A stretch of DNA of 64,000 nt from NCBI RefSeq assembly GCF_001676785.2, contig NZ_CP015910.2, positions 620,001 to 684,000 of the forward strand, written 5' to 3'. Source of the DNA: Brachyspira hyodysenteriae ATCC 27164. GTDB lineage: Bacteria; Spirochaetota; Brachyspiria; Brachyspirales; Brachyspiraceae. A program made the translations under genes and the position numbers. The notes below the pieces were generated by a model. The model was not told the DNA's origin. It did not search any database and saw nothing but the letters and a program-made list of their open reading frames with translations. Positions 29,090-34,757 of the stretch are shown one piece after another (position 1 is the first letter of the stretch; each line of letters opens with the position of its first letter).

Positions 29090-30553
29090 TTAATCATTTA
29101 AATAGAATGAAAGTATATTTTTAAATGATTTTATATTGTATTTTATATCGTAAATATCTCTTATACTTTTTATTTTTTGTAAAACGTATCTTGGAGTAAA
29201 TGATAGATTATAAAAGTATTCAATGTATTTAAATATTTGCTCATCATCCATATCTAATTGCATGACACTTTTTCTCATATCATAATCAAACCAATTTTTA
29301 GTTTTAATAAGATTATTTTCGTCACAATATTTGAATAATCTAGTTCCTGGATATGGTATAAATAGAGAGATATTCATAGAATTAATATATCCGTTAAGCA
29401 TTAAATCTTTTACAATATTGAATGTATTTATTATATCTTCTTCTGTTTCCCAAGGATATCCTATTTTTACCATTATATCTATGAATAATCCAGCTTTTTT
29501 AGCCAATTTTATAGATTCTATGACATTTTCTATTGTATTGTTAGTAATTCCTAATTTTTCTATTGTTTTAGTATTTCCTGAAGGTAAATTGAAAATAACT
29601 GTTTTAAATCCGGATTTTTTCATCATATTATAATCTTGATATTCCAATATTCCAAGATAAATATAACAATCTATATAAACTTTTTTATTAAGTTTTCTCT
29701 CTTTCATAGTTTCACAGAATAATGCAAGCCATTCTCCCGTAGGAAAATAAACACTTGTATCTATTATTTCTTTTATACCATATCTTTTATTAAGGTATTC
29801 TATTTCATCTATGACATTAATGGGATTTCTAACTCTTATATTATCAAAAAGAACATTAGAAGAATTACTGTTATAATTATTGTATGAAGATCCCCTTGCT
29901 GACATTATAAATGTACCAGGTGTTTTTTTGAAATATTCATTTGTTTTGGAATATAGCTTCCAATTAGTGAGATTTCTATCTATAAACGGAAGTCTGTCTA
30001 AAGATTCTTCAAGTTCAAATTTTCCTGTATTTTTTATATTTCCATTTGATGTTCTGTAGTATATTCCTTTACTTAATTTATCTCCGTTATTTATGTGATT
30101 AACCAAATTTAAAAGCAGAAAGTCATAATCTCCGCCTGTTAATATAAAATCAGTTTTTGATTTTTGCATACTCTCTTCAGGCAAGGCAGTAACATGATCT
30201 CCTGCTAAAACTATATATATATTTTCATTTTTTTCTTTTATTGATTCTATAGTATCCCAAATATAATTAATTATAGGAGTTTTTACTTCAAAGAATATTA
30301 AATCAGGAGCTATATTATCTATGTCATTAAACCAATCTATAGTTGTAATATTAGATGCTATAGTGTCCAAAAATATAACATTAATACCGTTGTTTTTTAA
30401 TAAAGTAGCAGCATAAGCAGGCAGTATAGGGTATGAATAAGATGGATTTTTTAACCATTGAAATTGTCTATTTAAAGATATTAATGGATATCCATTATTA
30501 TATTCAAACGGAGGATATGTTATACAAACTTTTTTTATTTCTTTTTTTTTCAT
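29090..30553 (-). CDS. B12-binding/radical-SAM-type protein lacking the Fe-S cluster cysteines
   Basis: A 487-residue protein with a B12-binding-like N-terminal domain (residues 10-155, TYPPFEYNNGYPL, VLAGDHVTALPE, ILTGGDYD) and a radical SAM barrel with the usual downstream motifs (GFKTVIFNLPSGNTKTIEKLG, VKIGYPWETEEDI, FIPYPGTRLFKYC). At the position of the C-x3-C-x2-C cluster motif (normally RGCPYxCxFC) it reads ARGSSYNNYNS, with Ser222, Asn226 and Ser229 in place of the three Cys. So it cannot bind the [4Fe-4S] cluster in the normal way and is likely a pseudoenzyme, unless cysteines elsewhere replace them. The frame is intact over its whole length, which argues against decay. Confidence 0.8.
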   Translation of the reverse strand: MKKKEIKKVCITYPPFEYNNGYPLISLNRQFQWLKNPSYSYPILPAYAATLLKNNGINVIFLDTIASNITTIDWFNDIDNIAPDLIFFEVKTPIINYIWDTIESIKEKNENIYIVLAGDHVTALPEESMQKSKTDFILTGGDYDFLLLNLVNHINNGDKLSKGIYYRTSNGNIKNTGKFELEESLDRLPFIDRNLTNWKLYSKTNEYFKKTPGTFIMSARGSSYNNYNSNSSNVLFDNIRVRNPINVIDEIEYLNKRYGIKEIIDTSVYFPTGEWLALFCETMKERKLNKKVYIDCYIYLGILEYQDYNMMKKSGFKTVIFNLPSGNTKTIEKLGITNNTIENVIESIKLAKKAGLFIDIMVKIGYPWETEEDIINTFNIVKDLMLNGYINSMNISLFIPYPGTRLFKYCDENNLIKTKNWFDYDMRKSVMQLDMDDEQIFKYIEYFYNLSFTPRYVLQKIKSIRDIYDIKYNIKSFKNILSFYLND

Positions 30554-30573: not shown

Positions 30574-31014
30574 TTATTTAGTTTTTTTAGCTGCTTTTTT
30601 CTTTGTAGCTGAAGATTTTTTCTTAATTATTTTATTTTCATATACATATTTTTCTAATTCATACTGATCATCAAATATTACATCATACCATTCTTCATAT
30701 CTTTCACATTTAGGAGGACTATGTTTTGAACAGATTTCATTTCTATTTTCATAATTTTTACAAAGATAAGTTTTTTTATCCAAATATCTGCATTCGCTTC
30801 TTATCATATGATACCAAGTATTTTCATATATAAATATAAATGAATGTCTGAAATGCAAATACCATTTTAATGTATTTAGTTCGCTTTCATTTTTAGGCGG
30901 AGCTATCTCCATAACCAAGTCATGACAGCATAATGAATTACAGTCAGCACATAATTTTTCACTTACTTTTTCTTTTCTATTTTTTAATAAACTATCTGAA
31001 GGTATAACTTTCAA
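30574..31014 (-). CDS. YkgJ-like cysteine-cluster protein with Lys-rich tail
   Basis: A 146-residue cytoplasmic protein with cysteines in the pattern of the YkgJ (CxxCxxxCC) family: KLCADCNSLCCHD at residues 20-32, then ECRYLDKKTYLCKNYENRNEIC and PPKC. Such clusters bind zinc or an Fe-S cluster. The last 18 residues are Lys/Ala-rich (KKKSSATKKKAAKKTK), like a nucleic-acid-binding or histone-like tail. It is 20 bases upstream of the radical-SAM-like gene, so the two are likely one operon. AAAGGCGG precedes the ATG. Function unknown. Confidence 0.7.
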   Translation of the reverse strand: MKVIPSDSLLKNRKEKVSEKLCADCNSLCCHDLVMEIAPPKNESELNTLKWYLHFRHSFIFIYENTWYHMIRSECRYLDKKTYLCKNYENRNEICSKHSPPKCERYEEWYDVIFDDQYELEKYVYENKIIKKKSSATKKKAAKKTK

Positions 31015-31075: not shown

Positions 31076-31516
31076 TTAATTATTAAAATAATTTTCCATA
31101 AATGTCATAAGTTTTTTCTGAGGCTCCACATAATTTTTTATTTCATCTTCTGTGAGGCATTTAAGCATTTCCATATCTAATTTTTCTAATTCTTTTAATA
31201 TAGGCTCTGCAAATGTAATACCTTTTTTTGTTAAACTTATTAATCTGTTTCTTTTATCTTTTGGATTAATCTTTTTTTTGATATAACCTTTCTTTTCAAA
31301 ATTTTCTAATATAGAACATACTGTTTGTTTAGGAACAGATAATTTTTCAGTTATTGTATTTTGAACGCATTCTTTACTATTGTATATTATAAATAAACTG
31401 AATAAAGCCAAATCTGTAATGCCGTACTGTTTAGCCCACAAATAATAAAATCTATTAGAAGTATACCAAAAATCATATATGACTTCCATATATTTTTTTA
31501 TATCTTCATTTTTCAT
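31076..31516 (-). CDS. MarR-family transcriptional regulator
   Basis: Winged-helix repressor of about 146 residues. The DNA-binding part reads NTITEKLSVPKQTVCSILENF followed by the wing KKKINPKDKRNRLISLTKKG, typical of MarR. The frame extends to an ATG at 31558, but that has no ribosome site; the ATG at 31516 (MKNEDIKKYMEV) has GGGA at good spacing, so I choose it. It lies 61 bases upstream of the cysteine-cluster gene in the same direction and may control that operon and itself. Confidence 0.9.
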   Translation of the reverse strand: MKNEDIKKYMEVIYDFWYTSNRFYYLWAKQYGITDLALFSLFIIYNSKECVQNTITEKLSVPKQTVCSILENFEKKGYIKKKINPKDKRNRLISLTKKGITFAEPILKELEKLDMEMLKCLTEDEIKNYVEPQKKLMTFMENYFNN

Positions 31517-31593
31517 AATTTTATCCCATTCTTTAATATTTCTATTAATATTAAACATAAATTAAAAATAAAACAAGATAGATTTTTATAAAA

Positions 31594-34325: not shown

Positions 34326-34757
34326 TTATGCATAAGTATCTACATTATTGCCCTTACTTGAAGGACTGGCTATTGCAGCTTTTGTAACACCGCCTGAAAC
34401 ATAAACTCTTTTACATTCAGGGCATATATTAGTAGTTAATGTTACATTTTGGAAAATTACTTCTCCGCCGCTTTTTTCTGCAGATCTCTGATTATTGGCA
34501 ACATGTTCTTGTTCATGTGATGCCACCATAGAAGGAGCACTTGAAGGATCTATTTTAGTAGGAGTTTTGAAAGATACGCCTATATCATTAGAGCCGTCTT
34601 GATATGTTCTTGATGCACAAGTTTTGCATACTCCAACTTCGCTTATAGGAGTTTTCTGGCTTGCTTCCTGAACAATATTATTGATATTATTGTTGTTATT
34701 TCTTATATTATTGCTGTTTCTTATATAAGGAGCATTATTACGAATACTTATTTCCAT
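34326..34757 (-). CDS. SprA-related putative metalloprotease with HExxH and two CxxC pairs
   Basis: A 143-residue protein. After an Asn-rich N-terminus (residues 6-27), it has CKTCASRTYQDGSNDIGVSF (C44, C47), then the zinc-protease-like ASHEQEHV (H81-E82-x-x-H85) and CPECKRVYVSGG (C112, C115). This order matches the SprA-related family (Pfam SprA-related), whose role is unknown. The two CxxC pairs likely hold a structural zinc. There is no signal peptide. Isolated gene, with no operon partner. Whether it cleaves peptides is untested. Confidence 0.75.
   Translation of the reverse strand: MEISIRNNAPYIRNSNNIRNNNNNINNIVQEASQKTPISEVGVCKTCASRTYQDGSNDIGVSFKTPTKIDPSSAPSMVASHEQEHVANNQRSAEKSGGEVIFQNVTLTTNICPECKRVYVSGGVTKAAIASPSSKGNNVDTYA

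Follow-up and report, generated by a model that had tools for sequence, protein, structure and literature searches.

A cysteine-free B12-binding/radical-SAM-like protein of Brachyspira as a pseudoenzyme paired with a CxxCxxCC gene

What use does a bacterium make of a radical-SAM fold whose cluster cysteines have all been replaced? The question is raised by a gene on the minus strand of the window, the whole stretch of 64,000 nucleotides of Brachyspira hyodysenteriae ATCC 27164 analyzed here (the plus strand over the gene is full of stops). We named its product, a cysteine-free B12-binding/radical-SAM-like protein, RSL (Table 1). The original prediction held that all three cluster cysteines were replaced, that the B12 and radical-SAM folds and their downstream motifs were kept, that the intact frame spoke for a retained, noncatalytic role (scaffold, regulator, or ligand sensor), and that RSL pairs with a cysteine-cluster protein encoded 20 bases upstream. 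Pseudoenzymes are well studied in kinases and other families. CxxCxxCC proteins, to which this neighbor belongs, are widespread and little characterized.

Table 1 Features of the RSL locus (window coordinates)
Feature	Coordinates	Strand	Basis or remark
RSL, cysteine-free B12-binding/radical-SAM-like protein	29090..30553	-	ORF of 487 aa, ATG start; orthologs; fold model
RSL residues 1-190, Rossmann-like B12-binding-type domain	29984..30553	-	PF02310 at residues 46-137; family alignment
RSL residues 214-400, radical-SAM-type barrel	29354..29914	-	PF04055 at residues 237-377; family alignment
Former [4Fe-4S] loop, residues 220-232 (columns S222, Y227, N230)	29858..29896	-	Family alignment
CxxCxxCC protein, 146 aa, TTG start	30574..31014	-	PF03692; neighbor in all 25 genus loci
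MarR-type regulator, upstream	31076..31558	-	Beside the pair in many, not all, Brachyspira

Domains and fold of RSL

The PF04055 match of RSL scored 35.8 bits (cutoff, 29.5) and covered only profile positions 23 to 162, the cysteine end being missing, while the PF02310 match barely passed (32.5 bits versus a cutoff of 32.1; the intact Brachyspira paralog scores 37.3). Cobalamin binding by RSL is assumed from this marginal PF02310 match. In the NCBIfam search, no model reached its cutoff for RSL or for three intact relatives, RSL falling below the curated cutoffs for HpnJ (104.5 of 577.6) and BchE (82.5 of 481.35).

The AlphaFold2 model of RSL had a pLDDT of 88.0 and a pTM of 0.90, and that of the intact B. 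hampsonii paralog had values of 91.5 and 0.91. The former cluster loop was poorly modeled in RSL (pLDDT of 62 and 69 for the blocks spanning residues 221 to 240, versus 79 to 89 in the paralog). The best fold match of both proteins was AprD4 (6fd2), with Z scores of 31.4 for RSL and 33.0 for the paralog; RSL superimposed on it with an rmsd of 3.2 over 425 residues at 15% identity. OxsB, MgmA (9ccb), TsrM, and CysS followed, with Z scores of 25 to 27 against RSL (best chains). Since the alignment behind the RSL model was rich in intact relatives, the barrel shape is partly imposed, and RSL appears compatible with a radical-SAM fold, short of proof. MgmA, OxsB, TsrM, and CysS are cobalamin-dependent radical-SAM enzymes that have the two-domain fold in common with RSL, but several of their entry titles name a catalytic cluster together with SAM or cobalamin, whereas RSL has no cysteine ligands. 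Likewise, the radical-SAM diol dehydratase AprD4 keeps its CETR arginine and GVES glutamate, both of which are missing from RSL.

Loss of the cluster ligands and of much of the SAM site

The intact B12-domain radical-SAM family from which RSL derives is found in many bacterial phyla and in archaea and has the motif RDCWxxxCTFCSW, with Cx4CxxC spacing. The matching stretch of RSL reads R220 G S S Y N N Y N S N S. Given the spacing of the parent family, the true cysteine columns in the alignment with relatives (RDCWHHRCTFCSW) are S222, Y227, and N230. The original prediction was therefore correct in that all three cysteines are replaced and in naming Ser222, but it had assumed Cx3CxxC spacing, and its Asn226 and Ser229 are not the cysteine positions.

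This absence is not a chance feature of one sequence, as aligning the orthologs showed that 25/25 in the genus lack all three cysteines, with S, A, or G in the first column, Y, F, or H in the second, and N, A, S, or V in the third. The B. pilosicoli group has one loop cysteine, at column 229, which is the phenylalanine column of the family. Cysteine triplets, with one spacing or another, occur in 20 of the 21 PF04055 loci of the genome, RSL being the exception. A search across the whole RSL protein for a cysteine followed, after 2 to 14 residues, by CxxC gave no hit, and no new cysteine set that could supply replacement cluster ligands was found elsewhere in RSL. The only cysteines common to the RSL clade are C10, C280 (24/25), C296, and C410, the last three being family-wide rather than specific to RSL.

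To evaluate losses beyond the cysteines, we used 57 intact relatives plus one Brachyspira paralog, from a set of 113 sequences, and obtained 124 columns in which a single residue accounts for 95% or more of the sequences. Six of the 113 had been set aside before the count, three of them distant (L090_8, L174_1, and L091_3) and three closer but divergent (L051_0, L204_0, and L205_2). The intact relatives were drawn from the best 80 of 498, and so the figure of 57/57 with an intact motif holds for close relatives only. In the 25 RSL sequences, 62 of these near-invariant columns were kept by all, 27 were missing in all, and 35 were mixed; the control, 25 intact Brachyspira paralogs, kept 117 of the 124 in all and had one missing in all. 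RSL thus resembles the intact family in length, in domain order, and in half of the near-invariant columns, but differs from it in the three cysteines and in 24 other such columns. The losses concentrate in the barrel (22/52 versus 5/72 elsewhere; Fisher P of 4e-6, with columns that come from one lineage and hence are not independent events), where only 17/52 family-invariant columns are kept in all 25 orthologs. The B12-type domain keeps 29/50 and misses three.

Among the columns lost besides the cysteines are D221, W223, F229, W232, D266, G268, N297, R299, R317, G322, E324, K336, H359, and M363. In 25/25 sequences the GxE glutamate has been replaced (E324 to P or H), as have the CNMR asparagine (N297 to Y or H) and arginine (R299 to Y or N). 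MgmA and AprD4, whose solved structures were aligned, likewise hold E and R in the E324 and R299 columns, which correspond to SAM-binding residues. By the alignment, then, RSL has lost its cluster ligands together with much of its SAM site; of the prediction that folds and downstream motifs were kept, the part on the folds stands and the part on the motifs does not hold throughout, since several SAM-pocket residues are lost.

Distribution, intact paralog, and ancestry

Among 61 genomes searched, 26 of them from Brachyspira (the window genome included), an RSL ortholog was found in 25 of the 26, at 54 to 100% identity and with an open frame of at least 487 codons in every carrier. Carriers include B. 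hampsonii, B. innocens, B. alvinipulli, and B. pilosicoli. In the remaining Brachyspira genome (G006), an assembly of 990 contigs and 88% completeness, neither an RSL nor a CxxCxxCC ortholog was found. A paralog about 48% identical to RSL is present in 26/26 Brachyspira genomes, with intact cysteines seen in 25; the other copy (G013) is a contig-end fragment from which the motif stretch is missing. In the window genome it lies at C1:1902223-1903665, far from RSL on the chromosome. This genome consists of two contigs, and 6 kb of the second one (32.6 kb) match a B. hyodysenteriae plasmid at 99.9% identity, in line with an origin of the window in that species or a very close one.

In a 50-row tree, RSL and the intact Brachyspira paralogs each formed a clade with support of 100/100. 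RSL grouped with the single copies from three genomes that represent sister genera within its taxonomic family (support of 99/95, and of 100/95 once distant outgroups were removed). One of these copies (G028) has a fully intact motif and directly adjoins a CxxCxxCC gene. A second (G027) keeps the cysteines and adjoins a CxxCxxCC gene, with 37/124 near-invariant columns missing. The third (G026; RYYKCNKSTNSS; L051/L073:6482-7936) sits on a long branch and has lost the cysteines, with 51/124 columns missing in total; its genome contains no other close member of the family. Together with Brachyspira, the sister genera show a natural series, intact in G028 and half-eroded in G027, with the motif stripped in Brachyspira. 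G026 joined Brachyspira with support of 96/56 and 94/76, and G027 as the closest sister was not rejected (AU p of 0.41). Given the long branches of G027 and G026, the trees are compatible with one or two cysteine losses, Brachyspira and G026 either having one in common or having one each.

A different pattern was seen in L204 (G030), which keeps three cysteines (RDCSFHACTFC) and has lost the N297, R299, G322, and E324 columns. This sequence is probably the same as L120, from the metagenome-assembled genome Spirochaetes bacterium NC_groundwater_1980, and possibly represents another route of SAM-site erosion.

The presence of an intact paralog (both genes occur in 25 genomes, and the paralog, counting one contig-edge fragment, in 26/26) brings up the idea that RSL might bind that paralog and switch, stabilize, or feed it. 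A dead paralog that activates its twin has a precedent in trypanosomes, where prozyme is the catalytically dead paralog beside a live AdoMet decarboxylase (PMC5201418). As with RSL, a dead copy is kept beside a live one, but the enzyme family is another and the partnership of prozyme has been shown (PMC5201418). Against such an activator, the RSL and paralog genes lie far apart on the chromosome and the cysteine-free copy of G026 has no close family member beside it in its genome, and we regard this explanation as rather unlikely.

Selection on RSL

Both genes had a usable dS in 95 of 210 species pairs. Across these, RSL gave a dN/dS of 0.123 (maximum, 0.261) and the intact paralog one of 0.043, with RSL higher in 95/95 pairs, which are not independent of one another. 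By region, RSL surpassed the paralog by a factor of 5.7 in the barrel and of 1.8 in the B12-type domain, and dN/dS of the RSL barrel nevertheless stayed low (median, 0.124). The RSL gene is under purifying selection, and a protein that had lost catalysis but stayed in use would show such a pattern.

A dying pseudogene or a sequencing artifact would explain the missing catalytic residues and a dN/dS roughly threefold higher than in the paralog. However, cysteines retained in close strains together with decay elsewhere, the signature of such a gene, were looked for and not seen (0/25 orthologs with cysteines, all frames open); frames of at least 487 codons persist in 25/25 genomes down to 54% identity, and dN/dS nowhere exceeds 0.26. 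With frames and dN/dS ruling out decay, this explanation is scarcely credible, and the intact frame and likely noncatalytic role put forward originally stand.

At several lost columns a single new residue has become fixed, or nearly so, among the orthologs (G221, S232, and K317 in 25/25; D359 and K363 in 24/25), as might be expected if RSL were a retooled enzyme with other catalysis in the old barrel, possibly using cobalamin or the metal of the CxxCxxCC protein. The low dN/dS of the barrel would fit this too. Nevertheless, the idea that the former active site has become a specially conserved new site was not supported, as lost barrel columns were no more conserved than other barrel columns (P of 0.68 over nine RSL representatives). 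Conservation at this background level does not point to a new pocket under special constraint, and the lack of a new cysteine set likewise counts against retooling, which we judge unlikely.

The better conservation of the B12-type domain, compared with that of the barrel, suggests another explanation, in which RSL would be a sensor or carrier of cobalamin or another ligand with the barrel as a passive body; PF02310 loci in the genome number only three. Yet the barrel itself is still under purifying selection, and AprD4, which comes closest in fold among the solved structures, is a dehydratase not known to use cobalamin. We consider such a role very unlikely.

With its catalytic residues lost, its fold kept, a homolog with an intact motif, and its sequence kept by selection, the assignment of RSL as a pseudoenzyme is well supported. 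As cysteines and SAM-site residues are both missing, we class it as a pseudoenzyme derived from radical-SAM enzymes and not as a functional member of that group.

The CxxCxxCC partner and the gene neighborhood

The CxxCxxCC gene lies upstream of RSL with 20 bases between them (30574 versus 30553), as originally described, and adjoins it in 25/25 genus loci, even where other neighbors have changed. In the B. pilosicoli group, for example, surA, the MarR gene, and a beta-galactosidase-like gene are no longer beside the pair and the CxxCxxCC gene still is. Its product matched PF03692 with 28.2 bits (cutoff, 23), its cysteines are invariant in 25/25 sequences of the family, and its dN/dS is 0.042 (57/171 pairs). 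Two further PF03692 loci occur in the window genome. The MarR-type regulator probably lies outside the module, since it adjoins the pair in many Brachyspira but not in others. With 25 found against 27.6 expected, a promoter scan around the pair did not rise above chance. Farther along the window, at 34326-34757, we found a gene whose synteny is kept in several Brachyspira; its 143-aa product contains CxxC pairs and begins with an asparagine-rich stretch.

The sister-genus pairs of G027 and G028 still have the cysteines, which makes it most likely that the pairing is older than the loss; from these loci, the association with the CxxCxxCC gene probably predates it. The pairing of RSL-type genes with CxxCxxCC genes is not universal, given that in G026 (98% complete) no CxxCxxCC ortholog was found genome-wide and none was recognized in the 238 bases upstream of the cysteine-free copy. 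This genome counts against schemes that need both a CxxCxxCC partner and an intact paralog.

For the intact parent family, 54 loci (L120 to L175) were compared, with a glycosyltransferase-2-type cluster in 49 and a polysaccharide-flippase-like cluster in 26 (flanks cut at 3 kb, single-linkage clusters typed by representatives only). These neighbors make it probable that the parent family has its role in pathways of glycans or lipid-linked sugars. The intact Brachyspira copy has no glycosyltransferase-2 or flippase-like genes among its immediate neighbors, and for that reason we do not transfer this role to it. Directly downstream of the intact Brachyspira paralog there is a gene for a 185-aa protein (L052:8751-9308) with no Pfam match, conserved where seen (L059, L060, and L064). 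A gene for a 199-aa protein, single beside the intact paralog in the window genome, is present in three adjoining copies at L059:3-1380 (G008).

A possible noncatalytic role

There is about an even chance, in our estimation, that RSL is an ancient pseudo-radical-SAM paralog serving as a noncatalytic partner or scaffold of the CxxCxxCC protein. In such a scheme, an old Cx4CxxC radical-SAM protein with a cobalamin domain, already paired with the CxxCxxCC gene, would have lost its cysteines and SAM pocket, while a paralog with an intact motif, as observed, was kept at another locus of the same Brachyspira genomes. Without cluster cysteines, GxE glutamate, and CNMR residues, RSL would be incapable of forming the 5'-deoxyadenosyl radical. 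It might then act as a scaffold or as a docking or stability subunit for the strictly conserved CxxCxxCC protein and may still use its old substrate- or cofactor-binding surfaces, those of the B12-type domain above all. On this view, the module's metal or thiol chemistry would fall to the CxxCxxCC protein. We infer this partnership solely from gene adjacency. A more specific version, for which the chances are somewhat below even, is a two-gene module whose radical-SAM subunit was stripped stepwise into a dedicated nonradical subunit, with the intermediates seen in the sister genera and a CxxCxxCC protein that is probably metal binding.

Some known systems resemble RSL in part. GenD1 and GenK are radical-SAM C-methyltransferases with the Cx4Cx2C spacing also seen in the parent family of RSL (PMC4340712), and both are catalytic. 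Dph1-Dph2 is a radical-SAM system of two related subunits, but each subunit has a cluster (PMC11048331), whereas RSL has no ligands at all. Searches of the literature on radical-SAM pseudoenzymes, Brachyspira radical-SAM or cobalamin proteins, cysteine-free or variant motifs, AprD4, and CxxCxxCC/YkgJ proteins returned no pseudoenzyme of the cobalamin-domain radical-SAM class, a weak negative because some of the searches were very narrow and subscription journals were mostly outside their reach.

RSL also carries a warning for annotation, as it passes the Pfam Radical_SAM cutoff although it has no cluster ligands. The series of intact, half-eroded, and stripped genes lies within one bacterial family, with an intact-motif paralog in the same cell as a control. 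If the stepwise scheme is true, these genes would document how a radical-SAM enzyme was turned in nature, step by step, into a protein with a structural or regulatory role. RSL thus lets one ask what a radical-SAM fold can be used for without radicals and what roles CxxCxxCC proteins may play.
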